In this document: positions 7,727-48,367 of the stretch, in pieces
Position numbering within the stretch: position 1 is the stretch's first letter
Layout: each line of letters starts with the position of its first letter
DNA from: an uncultured Acidimicrobiaceae bacterium
Lineage (GTDB): Bacteria > Actinomycetota > Acidimicrobiia > Acidimicrobiales > RAAP-2
NCBI GenBank assembly: GCA_903873395.1
Contig: CAIQOJ010000054.1
Location: 1-64,000, forward strand
DNA: 64,000 nucleotides
Direction of reading: 5' to 3'
Program-made: the position numbers and the translations under genes
The notes under the pieces: generated by a model
Told to the model about the DNA's origin: nothing
The model's database searches: none
Seen by the model: only the letters and a program-made list of their open reading frames with translations

Positions 7727-8413
7727 TCAGTGCGGGTCGATGACCAGCGCTGACCGCAACAGGCCGAGGATCTCATTGCGGCGACGCACCAAGGAGCGGG
7801 CGGTCGGCTCCTCACCGAAGGCTCGCAGCACGTCGACCTCGGTCACCATGCCGATCACCGTCGAATAGATGGCCAACAAGAGCAGCCTGGGCTCGTGGCG
7901 GCGCATGTGACCAGCGTCCATCTCGGCCTCCAAGAACTCGGTAGCCCGGTCGACCAACGGTTCGAGGGCACGCACAAAGCGGGTCGACGCCGGAGTGCCC
8001 ATGCGTCCCATCTCCCGCACCAAACCGAGCAACTCGGGACGACGGGCGGCCAGACGAAACACCGAGCGCACGACGGCGTCGATCCGGGCCCATCCGGTGC
8101 TAGCTCTGGTCAGCGCCAGTTCGAGAGCGGCCGCCAACTCAACCGTGCTTCGGTCGATGACGGCCTCGAGCAGGACTTCTTTGCTCGGAAACCAGTAGAG
8201 GATGGTCTGCTTGGTGATGTCCAGCCCGGCAGCTAGGGCGTCGAGCGAAGTTGCCTCGTAGCCACGCGTGGCGAACGACCGCAGCGCGGCATCAATGATT
8301 CGCTCAGAGGTCGGAGCGCCGTCAGTGGACGTCTGAGTTGAGCGGGCTCGAGCTCGCGGAGTCGCTCGGTCCCGTCCCCCCGCCACCCCGTCTCCTCCAT
8401 TGGGCACGCTCAC
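7727..8413 (-). CDS. TetR family regulator of the divergent acyl-CoA reductase operon
   Basis: 228 aa. The N-terminal HTH (about residues 36-80) reads I-I-D-A-A-L-R-S-F-A-T-R-G-Y-E-A-T-S-L-D-A, then I-T-K-Q-T-I-L-Y-W-F-P-S-K-E, a typical TetR recognition helix. The C-terminal part is a ligand and dimer domain. The GTG start at 8413 abuts a perfect palindrome at 8415-8426, and the opposite gene starts 10 bp past it. The regulator therefore most likely represses itself and the lipid operon, with an acyl-CoA or fatty acid as plausible inducer (inference). There is no room for a Shine-Dalgarno site, so the transcript may be leaderless. Confidence 0.87.
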   Translation of the reverse strand: MSVPNGGDGVAGGRDRATPRARARSTQTSTDGAPTSERIIDAALRSFATRGYEATSLDALAAGLDITKQTILYWFPSKEVLLEAVIDRSTVELAAALELALTRASTGWARIDAVVRSVFRLAARRPELLGLVREMGRMGTPASTRFVRALEPLVDRATEFLEAEMDAGHMRRHEPRLLLLAIYSTVIGMVTEVDVLRAFGEEPTARSLVRRRNEILGLLRSALVIDPH

Positions 8414-8414
8414 T

Positions 8415-8426
8415 TACCATATGGTA
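8415..8426. promoter_or_regulatory. Palindromic operator between TetR and the lipid operon
   Basis: Perfect 12-bp palindrome TACCATATGGTA in the 23-bp gap between the divergent starts at 8413 and 8437. Such a short gap means one site can control both promoters. Its role is inferred from position and the adjacent TetR gene. Confidence 0.68.
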
Positions 8427-8436
8427 GACAGATCTT

Positions 8437-10932
8437 GTGAGCCGCGTTCGCGACGCCTTGACCGCCAAGCGATTCTTTGTGACCGGCGCAACCGGGTTCC
8501 TTGGAACAGCCCTGGTCGAGCGCATCCTGCGCTGCGTTCCTGAGTCCGAGGTCGTGCTGCTCATTCGTCCGGGCCGCCGGACCTCGCCCATGCAACGGGC
8601 CACCAAAGAGATCCTCAAGAACGACTGTTTCGATCGTCTGCGTGAGGAATTCGGCGACCGCTTCGATGCCGAGATGACGGCCAGGATCACCGCCGTTGGC
8701 GGCGATGTGGCCACCGACGGACTTGGCCTGGACGATGACGGTCTCGAGGCGTTGTCCCGCTGCGACATCGTGATCCACTCTGCAGCGTCGGTCTCCTTCG
8801 ATTCACCCCTCGACTCGGCCGTCGAGGTCAACCTGCTCGGCCCTTCCCGGGTGGCTCAGGCCTATGTCGCGGCCAGGGACCTGGCCGAGTCCGATGGTCG
8901 AGTTGGTCCACGACACTTCATCCCGGTGTCTACGGCCTATGTCGCCAGCACGCACCAGGGCGAAGCCAAAGAAGAACTCTTGTCGGCCAACCCCTTCACC
9001 TTGGACGTCGATTGGCGTCACGAGGTGACGGCGGCCCGTCGACAGCGGGGCGATACCGAAGCTGAATCGCGACGTCCTGAGCGGCTGCAGGCCTTCCACA
9101 AGGAGGCTCGCAACGAACTGGGAGGGGCTGGCCTCCACCTCTTGGCCGAACGGGCCGAGCGCCTGCGCGAGGACTGGGTCAAGAAGCAGATGGTGGAGAT
9201 CGGGCAGGCTCGAGCGATCTCCCTTGGCTGGCCTGATGCTTACCCGTATACCAAGGCGCTGGGTGAACGGGCCCTCGTCGAGCAGTTTGGAACCACCGTG
9301 CCCATCACCGTGGTGCGCCCCTCGATCATCGAGTCCGCCTTGGCTGAACCCCGCCCTGGTTGGATCCGCGGATTCCGCATGGCCGAGCCCATCATCATCA
9401 GCTACGCCCGCGGTCTGCTCAAAGAGTTCCCGGGCGTACCTGAAGGCGTGACCGACGTCATCCCGGTGGACCTCGTCGTGGCCGCCATCATCGCCGTGGC
9501 CGGCGATGCACTGGCCTCTGCATCTGAGTTCGAGGCAGGCGACTCCTCGGCGGAGTACGCGGGACCCTCGGTCGTGCATGTTGCTTCGGGCGTCCGCAAT
9601 CCTTTCCGCTACGGCAAGCTCGTCGAACTCGTCACCGAATGGTTCAAGGAGCACCCCGTCTACGACCAAGACGGCCAACCCATCGTGGTGCCCGAATGGT
9701 CGTTTCCGGGCCGCGGACGTGTCCAGCGCCAGCTGACTCGTGCTTCCAAGGCCATGGGGATGGCCGAGCGGGTCGTTGGGTCGCTTCCGATCCGAGGCCG
9801 GCAAGCCGAGTGGATGGCCGCTCTCGAGGAGCGCCACCTCCTGGCTGATCGTGCGCTCGGTTACGTCGAGCTCTACGGCGCCTACACCGAGACCGAGGCC
9901 CGCTACCGGGTCGACCGGCTGCTGGCGCTGTCCGACCGGATGGACGACGAGGACCGCATGCTGTTCTGCATCGATCCGGCTGCCATCGACTGGCCCACGT
10001 ACGTCCGCGAGATCCACCTGCCCTCGATCATCGAGCATGCTCGGGTGCGCACCACGCCAGGCAAGGCCATCCGCACGGACCGAGCCGAGCGTGCCCGGAA
10101 GAACATTCTCTCCCCCGATCGCCACCTGGCGGCCTTCGACCTAGAGAACACCCTCATCGCTTCCAACGTGGTCGACGCCTATGCCTGGCTGGCCACTCGA
10201 CACCTGCCGCCGGCTGAACGGAGCGCCTTCATCGCCGACCTGGTGGCCGAAGGACCTCAGTTGCTGAGCCTTGACCGCCGAGATCGCGGTGATTTCCTAC
10301 GCACCTTCTACCAGCGCTACGACGGGGCACCCGCTGCTCGACTGCGGGACGACGGATGGGACTTGTTCCACCACCTACTCCTGGCCAAGTCGTTCCCTGC
10401 CGGCATTGCACGGGTCCGCGAGCATCGAGCACTCGGGCATCGGACCATCTTGATCACCGGTGCGTTGGACTTCGTGGTGGAGCCCTTCCGTCCCCTCTTC
10501 GACGAGATCGTCTGCGCCCGTATGGACGAGCGCCCGGATGGCACCTTCACGGGTCGCCTGATCGATCTCCCGCCCATCGGCGAGGCTCGGGCGTTGGTGC
10601 TCGCCGATTACGCCGACGCCGAAGGACTTCGCCTCGACGAGAGCATGGCCTATGCCGACTCGGCCAGCGATCTCCCTTTGCTCGAGGCCGTGGGCTTTCC
10701 GGTGGCCGTCAATCCCGAGGCAAAGTTGGCCGCCATTGCCCGTCGCCGGGGCTGGCATGTCGAAACCTGGCACAAGGCAAAAGGCGGGGCCCAGCCGCCC
10801 CTGCCCCTGGGTCCGTTCGACCGACCCGGATCGGCTCGGCGAGGCCGCACTGCACCCGCCGCCCTAGCTGGACAGGCTCGGCGCCTGCGGGCCACCCTGA
10901 CTGCAGGCCCCACCCCTAGGGAGATCCGATGA
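8437..10932 (+). CDS. Fatty acyl-CoA reductase fused to a HAD-IB domain
   Basis: 831 aa. Residues about 10-480 form an extended SDR acyl-CoA reductase: Rossmann motif T-G-A-T-G-F-L-G (16-23), S-T-A-Y-V upstream and catalytic Y269-P-Y-T-K273. The family reduces long-chain acyl-CoA with NADPH to aldehyde or alcohol. Residues about 560-790 are a HAD-IB phosphatase-like domain with motif II I-T-G-A and motif IV Y-A-D-S-A-S-D-L-P. HAD motif I is D568-L-E570-N-T: the usual second Asp, the general acid, is Glu. The GTG start at 8437 lies 10 nt past the palindrome with no clear ribosome site. First gene of a four-gene operon with 4-bp overlaps. Confidence 0.88.
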   Translation: MSRVRDALTAKRFFVTGATGFLGTALVERILRCVPESEVVLLIRPGRRTSPMQRATKEILKNDCFDRLREEFGDRFDAEMTARITAVGGDVATDGLGLDDDGLEALSRCDIVIHSAASVSFDSPLDSAVEVNLLGPSRVAQAYVAARDLAESDGRVGPRHFIPVSTAYVASTHQGEAKEELLSANPFTLDVDWRHEVTAARRQRGDTEAESRRPERLQAFHKEARNELGGAGLHLLAERAERLREDWVKKQMVEIGQARAISLGWPDAYPYTKALGERALVEQFGTTVPITVVRPSIIESALAEPRPGWIRGFRMAEPIIISYARGLLKEFPGVPEGVTDVIPVDLVVAAIIAVAGDALASASEFEAGDSSAEYAGPSVVHVASGVRNPFRYGKLVELVTEWFKEHPVYDQDGQPIVVPEWSFPGRGRVQRQLTRASKAMGMAERVVGSLPIRGRQAEWMAALEERHLLADRALGYVELYGAYTETEARYRVDRLLALSDRMDDEDRMLFCIDPAAIDWPTYVREIHLPSIIEHARVRTTPGKAIRTDRAERARKNILSPDRHLAAFDLENTLIASNVVDAYAWLATRHLPPAERSAFIADLVAEGPQLLSLDRRDRGDFLRTFYQRYDGAPAARLRDDGWDLFHHLLLAKSFPAGIARVREHRALGHRTILITGALDFVVEPFRPLFDEIVCARMDERPDGTFTGRLIDLPPIGEARALVLADYADAEGLRLDESMAYADSASDLPLLEAVGFPVAVNPEAKLAAIARRRGWHVETWHKAKGGAQPPLPLGPFDRPGSARRGRTAPAALAGQARRLRATLTAGPTPREIR

Positions 10933-12185
10933 AGGCACTCATCCTGGAGCGGAACCTTCCCCGATTTGCCGCCTCTCGTGTCGCCTCGATCTTCGGGTCT
11001 GGCCGCGGTGCCGGCCTGGGCCCGTTGCAACTGCTCGATGCCGAGACACCAGAACTTCCAGGTGACGAATGGCACACGCTGACGCCACTCCTATCTGGCA
11101 TCTGTGGTTCTGACCTCGCCACCATCGACGGTCGCACCTCTCGTTACTTCGAGGACTTGGTCAGCTTCCCGTTCGTTCCCGGCCATGAGGTCGTCGGCGT
11201 CTTAGCTGACGGTGGCACCGACCACGCCGGCCGAGTTCTTGCCCCTGGAACCCGAGCTGTCATCGAACCCGTGCTCGGCTGTGCTCCTCGCCACATCGCA
11301 CCGCTGTGCCCGTCGTGTTCACAAGGTGCGACCGGCCTGTGCGGGAACACCGCCTTTGGCGCCTTGGAGCCGGGCCTGCAGACCGGCTACTGCGCCGACA
11401 CCGGCGGCGGGTGGTCCGAGGCTGGATTGGTGGCCCATGCCAGTCAGCTCCATGCCATCCCCGAGACCTTCAGCGACGAAGACGGCGTCATCGTCGAACC
11501 GGTAGCTTGCGCGACGCATGCCGTGCTTTCGGCCGGCATCCGTGCCGGTGACGTGGTGGCGGTGGTCGGTGCAGGCACCCTGGGACTCGCCTCCATCGCC
11601 GCTATCACTACCCTGATCCGACCGGTGGCTCCGTGCACGATCGTCGCTGGCGCCAAGCATCCCCACCAACGCCAGTTGGCCGACGACTTGGGTGCCGACC
11701 ATGTGGTCGCACCCGATCAATTGGCCCGAGCCGTGCGCCGCCAGGCCGCTTCACTTGTCCTCGGCGGTCGACTCACTGCCGGAGCCGACGTGGTCATCGA
11801 CTGCGTCGGCAGCGCGGCATCGATCACTGAGGCCCTTGGACTGGTACGACCCCGAGGCACGGTGGTGCTGGTCGGCATGCCTGGAGTGGTCTCTGTTGAC
11901 CTGGCCCCGCTGTGGCACCGCGAGGTTCGCCTTGTCGGCGCCTACGCCTACGGAGCAGAGAACGCACCGGGCCACGACTCTCCTGCATCTGCACTATCTC
12001 CCGAGCGGCGCAGTTTCGAATTGGCCATCGACCTGGTGGCCCAGGCTGGCCTGGGCCGTCTCGTCTCCGCTCGCTATCCATTGGAACGTTACGAAGAAGC
12101 CCTGGTTCACGCCGGGGCCGCCGGCCGCCGAGGAGCGGTCAAGGTGGCATTCGACCTCACCACTGTGAAAGGACGCACCCGATGA
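10929..12185 (+). CDS. Zinc-dependent medium-chain alcohol dehydrogenase
   Basis: 418 aa. GroES-like N-domain with the catalytic zinc signature G-I-C-G-S-D and G-H-E-V-V-G, and a structural-zinc-like Cys loop (C-P-S-C, then C-G-N). The Rossmann domain has V-V-G-A-G-T-L-G-L (about residue 215). It starts inside the stop of the reductase (ATGA overlap) and ends in the start of the LarA-like gene. Its likely job is interconversion of an alcohol and aldehyde or ketone made in the same pathway; the substrate is unknown. Long for the family because of an N-terminal extension and insertions around the Cys loop. Confidence 0.85.
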   Translation: MKALILERNLPRFAASRVASIFGSGRGAGLGPLQLLDAETPELPGDEWHTLTPLLSGICGSDLATIDGRTSRYFEDLVSFPFVPGHEVVGVLADGGTDHAGRVLAPGTRAVIEPVLGCAPRHIAPLCPSCSQGATGLCGNTAFGALEPGLQTGYCADTGGGWSEAGLVAHASQLHAIPETFSDEDGVIVEPVACATHAVLSAGIRAGDVVAVVGAGTLGLASIAAITTLIRPVAPCTIVAGAKHPHQRQLADDLGADHVVAPDQLARAVRRQAASLVLGGRLTAGADVVIDCVGSAASITEALGLVRPRGTVVLVGMPGVVSVDLAPLWHREVRLVGAYAYGAENAPGHDSPASALSPERRSFELAIDLVAQAGLGRLVSARYPLERYEEALVHAGAAGRRGAVKVAFDLTTVKGRTR

Positions 12186-13771
12186 GTGCCAGACCAGGAT
12201 TCGTGCTGGAGGTCGATCGCTCCACGCCGCCGACGCTCTTCTGGCGAGGCGAGCGGTTCACGTTGGAGAAGCTGCCCGAGGGCAGTCGGGTCATCTACGC
12301 CCCTGAGCCCCACGAACCACTAGATGATCCGCTGGCGGCCATTCGCCACGCTCTCGCCAACCCGCTGGGCGACTCCGAACCGCTCTCTGCCCTGCTCTTC
12401 CCCGGCATGAAGCTGACCATCGCCTTCGACGACATCTCTCTCCCTCTCCCCCCTATGGAGCGACCCGATATCCGCCAGATGGTCATCGAGCAGGTCCTCG
12501 ACCTCGCCGCCGAAGCCGGCGTCGATGACGTGGAGCTGGTGGTGGCCCTCGCCCTCCATCGGCGAATGACCGAGCCAGAGCTTCGCCACGCCATCGGTGA
12601 CCGGGTCTATGACGCCTTCGCCCCCAATGGGCTCCTCACGCAGCATGACGCCGAAGATCGGGACAATCTCCTGCATCTCGGGCAGACCGATGAGGGCGAA
12701 GACGTGGAGATCAACAAGCGGGCCGCCACCAGTGACCTGTTGGTCTACGTCAACATCAACCTGGTGGCCATGGATGGTGGCCACAAGAGTGTGGCCACCG
12801 GCTTGTCCAGCTACAAGAGCCTGCGCCACCACCACAATCCCGAAACGATGCGGAAGTCCAAGTCCTTCATGGACCAGCACCGCTCCGAGTTGCACAGCGC
12901 CAACTGGCGTATGGGCCGACTCATCCGTGACGCAGGGATCAAGGTCTTCCAGATCGAGACCACCCTCAACACCGACACGTTCCCCGATGCGTTCTCGTAT
13001 CTGCAAAAGCGGGAGTGGGAGTGGAAGGCGAAGGACCGTATCGGATTCCTCGGCGCCAAGGCAGCACTCGACCGCATGCCTGCCCGCTATGCCAGGCGTC
13101 TCTTCCACTCGGTCAAGGCACCTCACCGCATGACCTCAGTGCAAGCCGGCGAAGTGGAAGCCGTCCATAAGGTGACCACCGAGAACGTGTGGGCCCAACA
13201 AGGGGTGGTGGTCGAAGGTCAGACCGACATCCTCACCCTGGGACTTCCCTACATCAGCCCCTACAACGTGAACTCGATCCTGAATCCGATCTTGGTGGCC
13301 TGCCTGGGGTTGGGCTACTTCTTCAACCTCTATCGGAACAAACCCTTGGTTCGCGAGGGCGGGGTGCTGATCATGACGCACCCGACTCCTTGGGAGTTCA
13401 ACCCCGTCCACCATCCGAGCTACATCGACTTCTTTGAGCAGGTCCTGTCGGAGACGACCGATCCCAGCGAGGTGGCCTCCCGATTCGAAGAAGGATTCGC
13501 CACCGACCCGTGGTACATCCACCTCTACCGCACGGGCCACGCCTATCACGGCGTCCATCCGTTCTACATGTGGTATTGGTGCGCACACGCCCTCCAGCAC
13601 CTTGGGGCAGTCATCATCGTGGGAGGCGATCCGAAGTCCGTCCACCGACTCGGATTCCGGTCAGCCACGACTCTGGCCGACGCCCTGGAGATGGCTCGTG
13701 ACGTCGTGGGCTCGTCGCCCACCCTGACACACCTGCATGCTCCCCCGATCCTCATGGCGGACGTGCAGTGA
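12182..13771 (+). CDS. LarA-superfamily (lactate racemase-like, DUF2088) protein
   Basis: 529 aa from the ATG at 12182, which overlaps the previous stop (ATGA). Family marks: the D-x-x-R-P-type motif region at 83-90 (F-D-D-I-S-L-P-L-P), the H-R-R-M-T-E-P-E-L motif with H126 (LarA H108 position), and a His/Lys/Gly segment G-G-H-K-S-V-A-T-G-L-S-S-Y-K at about 199-212, where LarA carries its nickel-pincer ligands. The usual Arg of D-x-T-R-P is Leu here and the G-F-S-G-G-x-K segment is altered, so substrate and perhaps cofactor use differ. LarA enzymes racemise or epimerise 2-hydroxyacids with the NPN cofactor. No larB, larC or larE is in the window. Confidence 0.78.
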   Translation: MSARPGFVLEVDRSTPPTLFWRGERFTLEKLPEGSRVIYAPEPHEPLDDPLAAIRHALANPLGDSEPLSALLFPGMKLTIAFDDISLPLPPMERPDIRQMVIEQVLDLAAEAGVDDVELVVALALHRRMTEPELRHAIGDRVYDAFAPNGLLTQHDAEDRDNLLHLGQTDEGEDVEINKRAATSDLLVYVNINLVAMDGGHKSVATGLSSYKSLRHHHNPETMRKSKSFMDQHRSELHSANWRMGRLIRDAGIKVFQIETTLNTDTFPDAFSYLQKREWEWKAKDRIGFLGAKAALDRMPARYARRLFHSVKAPHRMTSVQAGEVEAVHKVTTENVWAQQGVVVEGQTDILTLGLPYISPYNVNSILNPILVACLGLGYFFNLYRNKPLVREGGVLIMTHPTPWEFNPVHHPSYIDFFEQVLSETTDPSEVASRFEEGFATDPWYIHLYRTGHAYHGVHPFYMWYWCAHALQHLGAVIIVGGDPKSVHRLGFRSATTLADALEMARDVVGSSPTLTHLHAPPILMADVQ

Positions 13772-14802
13772 ACAGTCGCCGGGACTCGTCCCGGTCGCTC
13801 CTTCCGACTCGCGAAGTGCGGGCTGATGCGGCCCTGGGTGGTCGGGTGGGATCGACCTTGCGCCGACTCCGCCCGTCGGCGTTGGCCAGCCGCGCCGGGA
13901 GTGCTCACTTCCCACTGGCCGCACCGACCTGGCCGGGCACGGTGCCCCGACCGGCTCCCACGCCCGAACTCGGCGTCCACTACGACACTGCATGGTCACG
14001 CCGCTACCCAGTCCGCCTGGCCAGGGCCATCGTTCTCGACAATGTGACCCGGCCCGTGGCCAAGGTGCTGGCCCAACCACGGCTTCGCGGCGAGGATGCG
14101 CTGGTCGGCCTCGACACCCCATTGATTTTCGCTGCGAATCACGCCAGCCACATCGACACCCCGCTGATCCTCTCGAGCCTTCCTCAGCACATCCGCCACA
14201 AGACCGTGGTTGCTGCTGCAGCCGACTACTTCTTCGATCGACGATGGAAAGCCGATGTCTTCACGTTCCTCCTGGGCGCCATCCCCATGGAGCGGACCAA
14301 GGTGAATCGAAAGTCGGCCCAAGCGGCGGCCGATCTGATCGCCGATGGTTGGAACCTGGTGATCTTCCCCGAGGGCGGACGGACACCGGATGGTTGGGGT
14401 CAGCCCTTCCGGGGTGGGGCTGCTTACCTATCGATCCGCACCGGTCGACCCGTGGTGCCGATCCATCTCGATGGCACCCGCCACGTCTTGGCCAAGGGTT
14501 CGAGCACGATCCGGCGTTCGCGGACCACGTTGACCTACGGACTTCCCGTCTGGCCGTCCAAGGACGACGATGCTCGCAGCATGGCCGCCCGTATCGAAGC
14601 CGCAGTTGCTGCCCTGGCTGAAGAAGCGACCACCGACTGGTGGACTGCCCGCAAGGCAGCTGCCCGCGGTGAGTCTGCTGCTCTCCAGGGTCCTGACGCA
14701 GTTGCCTGGCGCCGATCGTGGGCCCTTGGGCCTGCCCCAGAGCGCCAGGAAGACATTGCTGGCCCCGAAGAGAACTCGTGGCCACGCAAAACACGTCGAT
14801 GA
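13768..14802 (+). CDS. 1-acyl-sn-glycerol-3-phosphate acyltransferase (PlsC) family
   Basis: 344 aa. PlsC acyltransferase core with the catalytic N-H125-A-S-H-I-D130 (HX4D) block and the downstream F-P-E-G-G-R-T-P-D substrate block near residue 202. A basic N-terminal extension of about 80 residues precedes the core. The GTG start at 13768 overlaps the LarA-like stop (GTGA). As the last gene of the acyl-CoA reductase operon it probably loads an acyl chain onto a glycerol- or polyol-phosphate made or processed by the partners; the acceptor is not known. Confidence 0.85.
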   Translation: MNSRRDSSRSLLPTREVRADAALGGRVGSTLRRLRPSALASRAGSAHFPLAAPTWPGTVPRPAPTPELGVHYDTAWSRRYPVRLARAIVLDNVTRPVAKVLAQPRLRGEDALVGLDTPLIFAANHASHIDTPLILSSLPQHIRHKTVVAAAADYFFDRRWKADVFTFLLGAIPMERTKVNRKSAQAAADLIADGWNLVIFPEGGRTPDGWGQPFRGGAAYLSIRTGRPVVPIHLDGTRHVLAKGSSTIRRSRTTLTYGLPVWPSKDDDARSMAARIEAAVAALAEEATTDWWTARKAAARGESAALQGPDAVAWRRSWALGPAPERQEDIAGPEENSWPRKTRR

Positions 14803-15082: not shown

Positions 15083-15898
15083 TCAACGCGGAGAGGTGCG
15101 TCGCCGCAATCGCCGAGCCGGACGGATGCGCTGCATGGCTTCGAGTCGTTCGGCTCGCAGCGACATCTCGTCGGCATCTTCCAAGGAGGCAAGTTGGGCG
15201 ACGGTTGCCTCCGGTGATCCCGCCGGAGCAAGCGCCCAGCCCAACAGCAGATCGGCCAAGGCCGTGTTGCGAGCCAGAACGGGCCCATGAAGGTAGGTGC
15301 CCAACACCCGACCAGACCAGGCTCCCTCCGTCTGATCTCCAGCCCCGTTGCCCACTCCGTGCTCGACATGAGCGAGTGGACGCACTCCTGGACCGAGCGA
15401 TGTCACCCCGCCATGGTTCTCGAAGCCAGTCAGTCGAGGGAGATGGTCCCCGGTGGCCATGCGAGGGGCATCGTGGGCGCACGAAGCGACCAACTCCCCC
15501 ACCGCACGCGGCCCACTTCCCTTGGTGGTGGTCACGTCCAACAGCCCGAGCCCCTCATGGGGTCGGCCTGTTGCGTCAGGGAACGAGCGTCCAAGCAACT
15601 GGAATCCCGCGCACACGCCGAGCACCACTGCTCCGTCGCCCACAGCTTCGACCAGGATGCCTTCCTCGATCAATGTGGTTGCGGCACGCACCTGGGGTCC
15701 GTCTTCACCACCACCCACCGTGTAGAGATCGGCCCGAGGCAGGGGCTCGTTGGATGGTGCTTGCAGCAGCTCTACATCGAGTCCCCGCCACGCAGCGCGT
15801 CGGGCCAAGATGAGGCCGTTCCCTCCGTCGCCGTAGGTTCCGAGAAGATCGGGATGAACCACGGCGATGGTCAGTCGACCCGGACGAGGGGTGATCAC
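15083..15898 (-). CDS. gatD: Lipid II isoglutaminyl synthase, glutamine amidotransferase subunit GatD
   Basis: 271 aa. Class I glutaminase with nucleophile C96 in G-V-C-A-G-F-Q-L-L-G, the H-P-D-L-L-G-T-Y-G-D-G-G-N start typical of GatD, and the late His in T-Y-L-H-G-P. It supplies ammonia to MurT for amidation of the alpha-carboxyl of D-Glu in lipid II. The start overlaps the murT stop by 4 bp, so the two are co-translated. Confidence 0.93.
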   Translation of the reverse strand: MITPRPGRLTIAVVHPDLLGTYGDGGNGLILARRAAWRGLDVELLQAPSNEPLPRADLYTVGGGEDGPQVRAATTLIEEGILVEAVGDGAVVLGVCAGFQLLGRSFPDATGRPHEGLGLLDVTTTKGSGPRAVGELVASCAHDAPRMATGDHLPRLTGFENHGGVTSLGPGVRPLAHVEHGVGNGAGDQTEGAWSGRVLGTYLHGPVLARNTALADLLLGWALAPAGSPEATVAQLASLEDADEMSLRAERLEAMQRIRPARRLRRRTSPR

Positions 15899-17337
15899 AG
15901 CGCACTCCGCAGGTCGGCGAACGCTGTGTAGTTGCCGAGGAACTGCACGGCACGGCCGCTGGTCGCACCATGGGATCCGGCCTCTCCTGTTCCACTGCCG
16001 TGATCAGCTCCACGGGGATGTTCGGCTCCTCCAGCCTCACCAACCCCGTCGGCGTGGCCATCGGCCTGATCAGCGGCTTCAGTCATGCGCACTGCATGAT
16101 CCAAGGCATCGAGGGGCGCAGCTACAACCGTGTGGGCGACCTCGGCATAGCGAAGCCGGACAGCAAGGTCGAGTCGCCGCTCCCCGGTGGCCACCACCGT
16201 CCTGCCCACCAGTCGCTCGAAGGGGACGTCCCACAGCCAACTCGTGTCCTTGCCGTCCGCCACCCGGGCATTGATGGACAACACCAGAGGTGGACATTCC
16301 GGCGCTGGAGGGCCGTCCTCGTCCACCAGGTCGAAGATGGCCGTCCATCCCGCAGGGTTCTTGGCCAACAGCAAACGCACGTCGTGGCCTGAACGCTGCA
16401 CCGTGGCGAAACGCCCGGCCACCTCTTTCACGTGGGCCACTCGAGACAACGCCTCGACGACGCCACCCCTTTCGTCGTCAATCATGACCGCACCAGCCAC
16501 GGCCACCATGGCTGCGTTGGCTCGATTGAACCGACCAGGCAGGGTGATCTCCACCGGGTGTCGCGACCCGTCGGCCAGCACCAGGTCGTCCCCGTCGAGT
16601 CGTGCAACGACCTCTGGCCGAGCGAACTCACATCGGTCGCACTCCCACCCACCAGCCTCTTCGAAGGTGATGCGACCACCGCAGGCGGGACAACCCACAG
16701 CGTCGTCCTGCCATACCTGACCCGCACCCACCCATCGAACATCGGGAGCCGGGTTGGCCGCCCACGTCACCATCGGATCGTCCGCATTGGCCACCACCAC
16801 GGTCCCCGGGCGGCCTGGAGCGGGCCGAGGTAGCGCTCCGAGGGCAGTGCGCCACCGGTCGACCAACATGCGGACCTCGCTGATCCTGTCGAGTTGGTCC
16901 CGGGACAAGTTGAGGAGGAGGACGACCTCTGGTGAGGTCGCCTCAACGACACGTCCGAGGTAGCCCTCATCCACCTCAAGCACCACAGGTGCACCAACTA
17001 CGCCTCCGGCCAATGCCGCCACATGCCCTGCCGGCATGTTCGCCCCCGTGTCGTTCGACACCACGGGATCGGTGCCGTTCGGCCCGGCCAGCACAGCGGC
17101 CAACATGCGAGTCGTTGTCGTCTTACCGTTTGTTCCGCTGACCAATGCGACTCGGTGCCCGTGGGCCAATGTTGCCAGGAGATCTGGATCGATGGCTAGG
17201 CCGGCTCGCCCACCAGCCACCGTGCCCGATCCGCGTCCCAGTGCACGCGACAACTGGTTCACGGCGGCCACGGCAGCCACGGCAGCCGATGCCCTCAGGG
17301 TCCGATTCGATGATGCCGGGCGCACCACGACGCTCAC
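15895..17337 (-). CDS. murT: Lipid II isoglutaminyl synthase, MurT subunit
   Basis: 480 aa. Mur-ligase central domain with P-loop G-T-N-G-K-T-T-T-T (68-76), the MurT-specific Cys4 zinc ribbon inserted in that domain (C-P-A-C-G-G ... C-D-R-C) and the C-terminal DUF1727 domain. With GatD it amidates lipid II. The C-terminal region carries a low-complexity Gly/His/Ala insert (about 425-465) that looks like an expansion. Its start overlaps the upstream HAD-PlsC gene by 4 bp. Confidence 0.93.
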   Translation of the reverse strand: MSVVVRPASSNRTLRASAAVAAVAAVNQLSRALGRGSGTVAGGRAGLAIDPDLLATLAHGHRVALVSGTNGKTTTTRMLAAVLAGPNGTDPVVSNDTGANMPAGHVAALAGGVVGAPVVLEVDEGYLGRVVEATSPEVVLLLNLSRDQLDRISEVRMLVDRWRTALGALPRPAPGRPGTVVVANADDPMVTWAANPAPDVRWVGAGQVWQDDAVGCPACGGRITFEEAGGWECDRCEFARPEVVARLDGDDLVLADGSRHPVEITLPGRFNRANAAMVAVAGAVMIDDERGGVVEALSRVAHVKEVAGRFATVQRSGHDVRLLLAKNPAGWTAIFDLVDEDGPPAPECPPLVLSINARVADGKDTSWLWDVPFERLVGRTVVATGERRLDLAVRLRYAEVAHTVVAAPLDALDHAVRMTEAADQADGHADGVGEAGGAEHPRGADHGSGTGEAGSHGATSGRAVQFLGNYTAFADLRSAL

Positions 17338-18716
17338 GCCGAAGGCCGGGTCCGGGCCAGCTCCTCGTCGGTGGGCACGTGCCGCTCGCGCGCCTGCGCG
17401 GGCAGTAAGTCGGCGATTGCAGCCATCAGCAGTTCCGTGTCGGCTACGGGATCACTACCAGCCAGCGTCATCGGCGGGCCAACCGTCACCGTCACTCGGG
17501 GCGGATGCTGGATAGTGAGCACGTGGGGGACCTTGGAGGAGCGGGGCCAGACTTCCTCGGTGCCCCAGATGCCGATGGGGATCACCGGTACTCCCGTAGC
17601 GGCGGCCAGCCGGGCCGCTCCAGTTTTTCCGGTGAGTACCGGTTCGAAGAATGCGTCGCCTCGGGGGATCGTTCCCTGAGGCAGGATCATGACGACTTCG
17701 CCCGCCCGCAAGGCGGTGACAGCCTTACGCATCGGTTCTCCGGTCCCGTTCCCTCGATCGACAGGGATCCCTCCTAAGGCCCGAGCAATCTGTCCCACCA
17801 CAGGGGCATCGAAGATCTCCTGTTTGCCCATGAACCGCATGGGTCGCCGGAGGCGAGCAGCCACCATGCCGAGTGCGGCCACGTCGAAGTAACTGCGGTG
17901 GTTCGAGGCGAGCAGCACCGGACCGGTCGATGGAATGTGCTCGATGCCATGAACGGTGAAGCGGGCGTAGGGGAAGGCCTCGGGCCGGATCAAGGTCCTG
18001 ATCACGTCGTAGGCCTCGACGCCCACCACGGCCGGCACTCCTTCTGGGCGCTCCCACTGCTCGATGGGCCACCGGCGGGCCAGGGCTACGGCCGCCAGGC
18101 GCGGATCCGCATGCAGCGGATGAGGGTGCCCGACCATTGAGAGCAGCGGGACATCGAAGACGCTGTCGGAGTAGGCATGCGACGCACGGAGGTCCGTGCC
18201 ATGGTCGTTGGCCCAGACGCGAACGGCATCACGTTTCCCCGTGCCCCAGATGAATCGGCCAGCAAGGCGGCCGGTGTAGAGCCCATCGACCTCCTCGTAG
18301 CGGGTGGCGATGATGTCGTCGAAGTCCAAAGCCTCCGCCAGCGGCCTGACAAGGTCATAGGGGGTGGTGGTAGCAAGCACGATGGGCCGGCCCGCCGCTC
18401 GATGGTCGCCAAGCACCTCGAGGGCATAGGGCTGGACCATGTCGATGAGTTGGTCGACCGCAGCCTGGCCAGCGCGGCGCGCGGCATCGGCGGACCGGTT
18501 GCGCATGAGCCGGGCGGCGGCCCGAGCCATGCCCATAGATGGGACCGTTTCGCCGAAGGCGTTATAGAAGCCGTAGAAGGCCCGCTCCCCGGGAAGCCTG
18601 TGTCCACCAGACAGCACACCCTCATCAACCATGGCCTTTTGAAGGACCGGCCCGCTGGCCGAACCCAAAAGGGTGCGATCGAGATCGACGAAGACGGCGC
18701 CTGCTTCGGTGGCCAT
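17334..18716 (-). CDS. HAD-IB phosphatase / PlsC acyltransferase fusion
   Basis: 460 aa. N-terminal HAD-IB domain (about residues 5-215) with intact motif I D11-L-D13-R-T, motif II A-T-T-T-P and Y-S-D-S-V-F-D. The C-terminal PlsC domain (about 230-440) has N-H-R-S-Y-F-D (HX4D) and L-P-Q-G-T-I-P. The same fusion occurs in mycobacteria, where it is annotated as phosphoserine phosphatase/acylglycerolphosphate acyltransferase. It heads the operon with murT and gatD, coupling phospholipid and peptidoglycan precursor genes. Unlike the HAD domain of the acyl-CoA reductase, its catalytic Asp pair is complete. Confidence 0.9.
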   Translation of the reverse strand: MATEAGAVFVDLDRTLLGSASGPVLQKAMVDEGVLSGGHRLPGERAFYGFYNAFGETVPSMGMARAAARLMRNRSADAARRAGQAAVDQLIDMVQPYALEVLGDHRAAGRPIVLATTTPYDLVRPLAEALDFDDIIATRYEEVDGLYTGRLAGRFIWGTGKRDAVRVWANDHGTDLRASHAYSDSVFDVPLLSMVGHPHPLHADPRLAAVALARRWPIEQWERPEGVPAVVGVEAYDVIRTLIRPEAFPYARFTVHGIEHIPSTGPVLLASNHRSYFDVAALGMVAARLRRPMRFMGKQEIFDAPVVGQIARALGGIPVDRGNGTGEPMRKAVTALRAGEVVMILPQGTIPRGDAFFEPVLTGKTGAARLAAATGVPVIPIGIWGTEEVWPRSSKVPHVLTIQHPPRVTVTVGPPMTLAGSDPVADTELLMAAIADLLPAQARERHVPTDEELARTRPSA

Positions 18717-37791: not shown

Positions 37792-38015
37792 GGAATCCCC
37801 CCACTGGCACGTGGACTGGATTATCTGCCAGGTGGTTGAACCGGCCCGAGAGAACAGGCCTCGGGAAACGGAGTTGCGCTAGCAGACGTGCCTAGGCGGG
37901 CTGACCGGACGCCAGGTTTCCCGACGTCACGCAACCACCCCCGTTGCCATCACCGTCCCAGTTGCGTCGCCTCCGCACTGACCGTGCCAAGAAAGCTCGG
38001 CCGTAGAGACCGATG
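37792..38015. other. Intergenic gap with weak hairpin
   Basis: 224 bp between convergent genes. The only structure seen is a short inverted repeat CCCGAG/CTCGGG at 37845-37865, which may terminate the lipoprotein transcript. No gene evident. Confidence 0.35.
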
Positions 38016-47764: not shown

Positions 47765-48367
47765 TCAGCCTTCCCACTCCACGCGGGTCCACCGTCCATC
47801 GCGTGCCGCCTCCGATCGAATCCATCCCGGTGCCAACACGAGTTCTTTGACGACCTTCGCCGGACTTCCGGCGGCCAGAACGCCGGCCGGGACATCCCGG
47901 GTGACGACAGATCCTGCGGCAACCACCGACCCTTTGCCGATGGTCACGCCGGCAAGCACCGTCACTCCCCTGCCTAGCCAGACGTTGTCTTCGATCACGA
48001 CCTCGGCGAGTCTGACCGGAGTTTCGCTATCTACCTGGTGGTAGCTCGAATCTGTGATCGAACAGCCATCACCGATCATCACGACATTGCCGATGCGAAT
48101 GGAGTGCGCCGCCACGATGGTGCAGCCCTGGTTCCAGTTGGTCCCGCTACCGACGGACAGCGTCCCGCCTGCCACAGCCCCAATCTCCGACTTCCTCACT
48201 GCAGCCTCGGAGCGCACCCGGCGACCCAAGACGATCCTCCCTTTCCCCACCCATACGGGTTGGCGGCCCTGGATGACCACGGGCGTCCACCGACCCGTGA
48301 CCAGGAGTACGCGGATCGTTCCGATCAAGCTCCCCACGGCGGTGCCAACGGTCTGCCACGAGATCAT
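47765..48367 (-). CDS. Hexapeptide-repeat acyltransferase (maltose O-acetyltransferase-like)
   Basis: 200 aa from the ATG at 48367, which overlaps the flippase stop by 4 bp. Left-handed beta-helix with I-G-x-x-V-V/I-G-D-G-type hexads (R-I-G-N-V-V-M-I-G-D-G-C-S-I), V-I-E-D-N-V-W-L-G-R-G-V, I-G-K-G-S-V-V-A-A-G-S-V-V and P-A-G-V-L-A-A-G-S-P-A-K. It O-acetylates a sugar, probably of the polymer made by the neighbouring genes. Confidence 0.9.
   Translation of the reverse strand: MISWQTVGTAVGSLIGTIRVLLVTGRWTPVVIQGRQPVWVGKGRIVLGRRVRSEAAVRKSEIGAVAGGTLSVGSGTNWNQGCTIVAAHSIRIGNVVMIGDGCSITDSSYHQVDSETPVRLAEVVIEDNVWLGRGVTVLAGVTIGKGSVVAAGSVVTRDVPAGVLAAGSPAKVVKELVLAPGWIRSEAARDGRWTRVEWEG

Follow-up and report, generated by a model that had tools for sequence, protein, structure and literature searches.

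Why should a protein of the LarA superfamily, whose characterised members use a nickel-pincer nucleotide to isomerise hydroxy acids, be encoded among enzymes of lipid synthesis? The question is raised by a run of four genes in a 64,000-nucleotide stretch of DNA (the window) from the genome of an uncultured Acidimicrobiaceae bacterium (G000; GenBank assembly GCA_903873395.1, contig CAIQOJ010000054.1), for which domains were called with Pfam and NCBIfam. The genes encode a fatty acyl-CoA reductase (FAR) fused to a HAD-IB phosphatase domain (FAR-HAD), a zinc-dependent alcohol dehydrogenase (ADH), a LarA-like protein and a PlsC-type acyltransferase (Table 1). A preliminary description of the window had noted 4-bp overlaps between the four (ATGA, ATGA and GTGA) beside a divergent tetR gene, a layout that we found to be exact, and had proposed that they make an unusual lipid. 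Our analysis suggests that the operon probably encodes a TetR-controlled ether-lipid pathway yielding 1-O-alkyl-glycerol-3-phosphate for mixed ether/ester phospholipids. Taken as a whole, the interpretation towards which we lean is an ether-lipid operon whose LarA-like protein most likely carries out the ether-forming step.

A co-inherited gene set and its cofactor genes

We searched for the gene neighbourhood across actinobacterial genomes, comparing 80 related loci from named, mostly Acidimicrobiia metagenome-assembled genomes (MAGs) and 40 stretches from other genomes; contamination of MAGs may affect single loci. Homologues were not scattered. All four genes occur in the same order and on the same strand in 89 loci from Acidimicrobiia and other classes, in keeping with the pathway envisaged in the preliminary description, and nearly all loci without the full set are cut by contig ends, carry distant LarA groups or belong to Rubrobacter. 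Among 396 genomes of the phylum, LarAH14, the LarA group of the operon protein, was found in 80, FAR-HAD in 82 and both in 79. The pairing is close to obligate, although the co-occurrence p-value of 1e-78 overstates the evidence because the genomes are related. The only genome with LarA alone (G194), and two of the three with FAR-HAD alone (G224 and G040), have the gene on a short contig or at a contig end. Pairwise protein distances correlate between the operon proteins (r 0.76-0.90 over all loci; 0.90 for FAR-HAD against the LarA-like protein), and the LarA-like protein is the slowest-evolving of them. The gene set is thus conserved and inherited together across several actinobacterial classes, Rubrobacter among the carriers. 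No LarA-like protein was found when plasmids were searched for it.

For cofactor synthesis, the window genome carries LarC and LarE, and the operon gene is its only LarA; its nickel-pincer machinery therefore seems to serve the operon enzyme. LarB was sought only beside larE in this genome, where the neighbour is HemQ-like. LarC was detected in 73 of 80 operon carriers, and in four loci (L120 and L124-L126) LarE- and LarC-cluster genes lie just past PlsC. The close relatives in which the operon is missing, nine from genus g3 plus further members of family f1, have no LarC either; in the nine g3 genomes, small-genome relatives from the family of G000, FAR-HAD, LarAH14 and LarC are absent together. 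Separately, genome G347 encodes FAR-HAD without LarA (L168:7989-11861), between two paralogous genes of about 270 amino acids, one with weak ferritin/desaturase matches; the reductase may be put to another use there.

A LarA-like enzyme without the second catalytic histidine

The LarA-like protein matches the LarAH14/15/16 family (NF052592) over its full length, with 892.6 bits against a cutoff of 740 and coverage of profile positions 1-520. We mapped its residues by alignment to LarA of Streptococcus plurextorum (residues from PMC12611868) and counted them over 108 operon-type sequences. The lysine that holds the cofactor through a thioamide link (K202), the nickel-binding histidine (H218) and the first catalytic histidine (H126) are present in all 108, and Y361 and H459 are also conserved. 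The second catalytic histidine of the racemases is absent from all 108 and asparagines stand there instead (N191 in 108/108, N193 in 106/108). At the site where an arginine or lysine of the racemases binds the carboxylate and the cofactor phosphate (Lys76 in the S. plurextorum enzyme) the operon protein has L87, which is leucine in 103 sequences and otherwise isoleucine or cysteine. The protein thus lacks both the histidine pair and the carboxylate anchor that define LarA hydroxy acid racemases.

Its closest relatives in fold are the single-His LarA enzymes of S. plurextorum, named as the nearest, and Blautia wexlerae (9q2u, 9q3k and 9q3j). An AlphaFold model (pLDDT 82.9) matched 9q3k best (Z 37.0, root-mean-square deviation 2.8 over 454 residues), and His115, Asn185, Lys195, His211, Tyr307 and His401 of the single-His enzymes all have counterparts in the operon protein, which shares with that subfamily both this residue set and the fold. 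However, identity is only 27%, their His306 corresponds to Pro360 and their Lys76 to Leu87, and their genes lie in a context of sugar metabolism whereas the operon context is lipids.

The preliminary description had allowed for a stereo-inversion of a hydroxy group. In such a scheme LarAH14 would act as a genuine epimerase, inverting a carbon that bears a hydroxy group, on a 2-hydroxy acyl chain or between glycerol-phosphate sn-1 and sn-3, on the way to an unusual lipid. The characterised LarA enzymes are all 2-hydroxy acid isomerases (PMC7583248, PMC11770544), and Gatreddi et al. allow for one-directional epimerisation with a single histidine (PMC12611868). Nevertheless, racemisation needs the second catalytic histidine that all 108 sequences lack, and the anchor for the acid group is replaced by leucine, isoleucine or cysteine. 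Moreover, the Frankia member of LarAH14 was inactive in seven racemase/epimerase assays (Desguin et al. 2020, PMC7583248). We therefore find no support for the stereo-inversion and consider an epimerase unlikely. In that study, groups 14 and 15 lack His174, as the operon protein does, the text consulted names neither a function nor a lipid setting for LarAH14/15/16, and the authors suggest that groups without His174 may perform another hydride-mediated reaction.

In two genomes, distant or solo LarA genes adjoin genes for DAC/DACNV-type (DisA-related) proteins (L133:6856-8316 and L142:10650-12098).

Ether lipids, Rubrobacter and the proposed reaction

Residues 6-536 of FAR-HAD align to the solved fatty acyl-CoA reductase 7eoz (4e-59), and the Rossmann motif and YxxxK signature (Y269/K273 in 88/88) place it among the fatty acyl-CoA reductases; a C-terminal Sterile domain scored 30.1 bits, under its cutoff of 35.4. 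In the HAD-IB domain, the residue two positions after D568 is Glu in 77 of 88 sequences and Asp in 11. Whether the resulting DxE motif points to an inactive domain was weighed, but it allows no conclusion, because DxD occurs in Rubrobacter and several other lineages. The nearest solved structure to ADH is a ketose reductase (1e3j, 1.5e-24). Wax ester synthesis also uses FARs, and the HAD domain could yield diacylglycerol, so that the fatty alcohol from the operon might go into wax esters or another kind of neutral lipid, with no relation to ether bonds. We regard this as very unlikely, given that no wax synthase was found among the annotated neighbours and that the constant partners are a PlsY or PlsC acyltransferase and a LarA with its costly cofactor requirement.

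Rubrobacter links the gene set to known lipids. One family among the genomes (f34) is Rubrobacter: the plasmid contigs of G051, G073, G174 and G208 were identical, over the 15 kb compared, to records of R. radiotolerans, R. indicoceani, R. tropicus and R. marinus. Most loci of this family with an intact upstream flank read PlsY-FAR-HAD-ADH-LarAH14, with the glycerol-3-phosphate (G3P) acyltransferase PlsY in place of PlsC. Chorismate-binding, histidine-biosynthesis, sulfatase and protoglobin genes near these loci were judged ordinary neighbours. Sinninghe Damste et al. reportedly described in 2023 a putative 1-O-alkyl-glycerol-phosphate operon in Rubrobacter, with the same organisms and product; it may well be the same operon. 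Apart from that possible case, our search of the literature for this gene set found no description. Mixed ether/ester membrane lipids are dominant in five Rubrobacterales species, according to the title of a 2023 study cited in PMC11150832. The alkyl or ether part of the proposal for an unusual lipid is thus well supported by the conserved neighbourhood, the co-occurrence, the PlsY swap and these published lipids; its stereo-inversion part does not.

The same lipids bear on a further alternative, in which LarAH14 handles a 2-hydroxyacyl chain that FAR reduces, giving long-chain 1,2-diol lipids. Hydrophobic 2-hydroxy acids are substrates for some LarA enzymes (PMC11770544), and FAR would then give the diol. 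Yet the operon holds no hydroxylase, the carboxylate anchor of LarAH14 is lost and the known Rubrobacterales lipids, again by that title, are mixed ether/ester, and we give this route very little credence.

If the product is an ether lipid, which enzyme forms the bond? The PlsA/Ger domain (DUF2229, PF09989) was found in none of ten operon genomes, with four controls positive, including Thermotoga maritima, and we rejected it as their ether enzyme. At 1e-60, no AGPS-like protein was found in 50 of the 80 carriers, among them every Rubrobacter genome listed. G041, a genome of the Rubrobacter family assembled as a single contig of 3,225,748 bp, encodes three FAD-oxidase_C proteins, all D-lactate/glycolate-oxidase-like; the operon FAR is its only strong FAR match, and no second strong NAD_binding_4 protein was found there, although no search was aimed at the polyketide synthase (PKS)-like ElbD. 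The tested ether-forming enzymes are therefore missing where ether lipids dominate and the operon is present. The bacterial PlsA/Ger and ElbBDE/AGPS routes give the kind of product that is proposed here, but the operon has neither a PKS-like ElbD nor AGPS. With the peroxisomal pathway (FAR1, GNPAT, AGPS and acyl/alkyl-dihydroxyacetone phosphate (DHAP) reductase) the operon shares a FAR, glycerol-phosphate acylation and an enzyme capable of redox chemistry at C2, but it lacks the FAD-dependent AGPS and has a G3P acyltransferase (PlsY) rather than a DHAP acyltransferase.

From these data we infer a product, an order of steps and a reaction for the LarA-like protein. FAR would reduce acyl-CoA to a fatty alcohol or aldehyde, and 1-acyl-G3P would come from PlsY in Rubrobacter or from housekeeping enzymes. 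AGPS, the eukaryotic FAD enzyme, needs a C2 ketone beside the carbon at which acyl is exchanged for alkyl. The nickel-pincer cofactor of the LarA-like protein could take a hydride, the likely donor being C2 of the glycerol backbone, so that the transient ketone would activate the adjoining C1 and the ester-bound acid at sn-1 could be swapped for fatty alcohol. The hydride would then be returned to the same face, without inversion; such a return would require no second histidine, and a substrate that is not an acid would require no carboxylate anchor. PlsC would acylate sn-2 and the HAD domain would remove phosphate from a lipid intermediate. Alternatively, the LarA-like enzyme may reduce, by hydride, a hemiacetal formed from the fatty aldehyde. 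That the LarA-like protein catalyses ether formation is a suggestion we make with reserve. More tentatively still, LarAH14 could be a nickel-pincer-dependent alkylglycerol-phosphate synthase that works by a hydride shuttle with transient oxidation of the glycerol backbone, in an FAD-free route.

Several points weigh against the ether-lipid interpretation. We know of no LarA-family enzyme that acts beyond hydroxy-acid isomerisation. LarC was undetected in seven of the 80 carriers, which are draft genomes. ADH is missing from three loci, two in Microthrix (L077 and L079) and L176 (G235), leaving its role uncertain; the core is therefore FAR-HAD, the LarA-like protein and the acyltransferase. The literature offered neither lipid data on the window organism nor any account of ether lipids in Acidimicrobiia. 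Finally, an AGPS-like gene is present in the window genome itself, within a GlpD-AGPS-GlpK run on its contig C56 (L232:5603-10343). An FAD enzyme of this kind might form the ether bond, with the operon supplying fatty alcohol and acylation and LarAH14 in a side role: AGPS structures are the best PDB matches of the protein (L193; 2uuu, 163 bits), which is encoded between GlpD-like and GlpK-like genes. However, the 50 carriers mentioned above lack such a protein, operon-less genomes and relatives have it, and in G306, of the same family, only a glycolate-oxidase-like protein was found. On this distribution we rejected AGPS as the partner of the operon and consider the explanation quite unlikely.

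If the ether-lipid interpretation is right, an orphan nickel-pincer group without the second histidine of the racemases would gain a function, and the cofactor could extend from isomerisation to bond formation, a reaction new for it. An FAD-free route to ether lipids would likewise be new and present in several actinobacterial classes. On this interpretation, ether lipids are to be expected in Acidimicrobiia and in other Actinobacteria, largely uncultured, that live in soil, peat and freshwater; this would have a bearing on the 'lipid divide' and on where bacterial ether biomarkers come from.

The operator and neighbouring genes

The perfect palindrome reported earlier in the 23-bp gap between tetR and FAR-HAD is indeed present, and it belongs to a conserved operator. 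The core ACCANNTGGT occurs in 48 of 50 orthologous gaps, against 0.08 expected from shuffled gaps, and the extended consensus across related gaps is TCTACCANNTGGTAGA. If tetR starts at the GTG picked by the open reading frame finder, the operator reaches its start codon, and about 35 N-terminal residues ahead of the helix-turn-helix are not conserved; for these reasons the tetR start is tentative.

Table 1 Features of the operon in the window (positions in the 64,000-nucleotide stretch)
Feature	Position	Strand	Evidence
TetR-family repressor, divergent	7727-8413	-	PF00440 7.9e-14; divergent orthologue in about 50 loci
TetR operator CTTACCATATGGTAGA, perfect core TACCATATGGTA at 8415-8426	8413-8428		Conserved across gaps; predicted
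FAR-HAD, fatty acyl-CoA reductase fused to HAD-IB phosphatase domain	8437-10932	+	GTG start; NAD_binding_4 1.5e-56, HAD 7.4e-25
FAR reductase domain	8479-9489	+	S165/T166 and Y269xxxK273 invariant (88/88)
HAD-IB domain	10129-10686	+	D568 invariant (88/88)
ADH, Zn-dependent medium-chain dehydrogenase, sorbitol/ketose-reductase like	10929-12185	+	ATGA overlap with FAR-HAD; C59, H86, E87 invariant
LarA-like, LarAH14/15/16-family nickel-pincer-nucleotide enzyme	12182-13771	+	ATGA overlap with ADH; NF052592; fold match 9q3k
PlsC-type acyltransferase	13768-14802	+	GTGA overlap with LarA-like gene; PF01553 6e-18; HxxxxD (H125/D130) and PEG (201-203) conserved

Two further matches to the operator consensus, each with two mismatches, lie in the window at 37824-37839 and 48030-48045, where about 0.04 would be expected by chance. 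After the operon, on the minus strand at 15083-18716, the window encodes a GatD-MurT-like pair and a HAD-PlsC fusion protein, an arrangement that is syntenic in many Acidimicrobiia loci.

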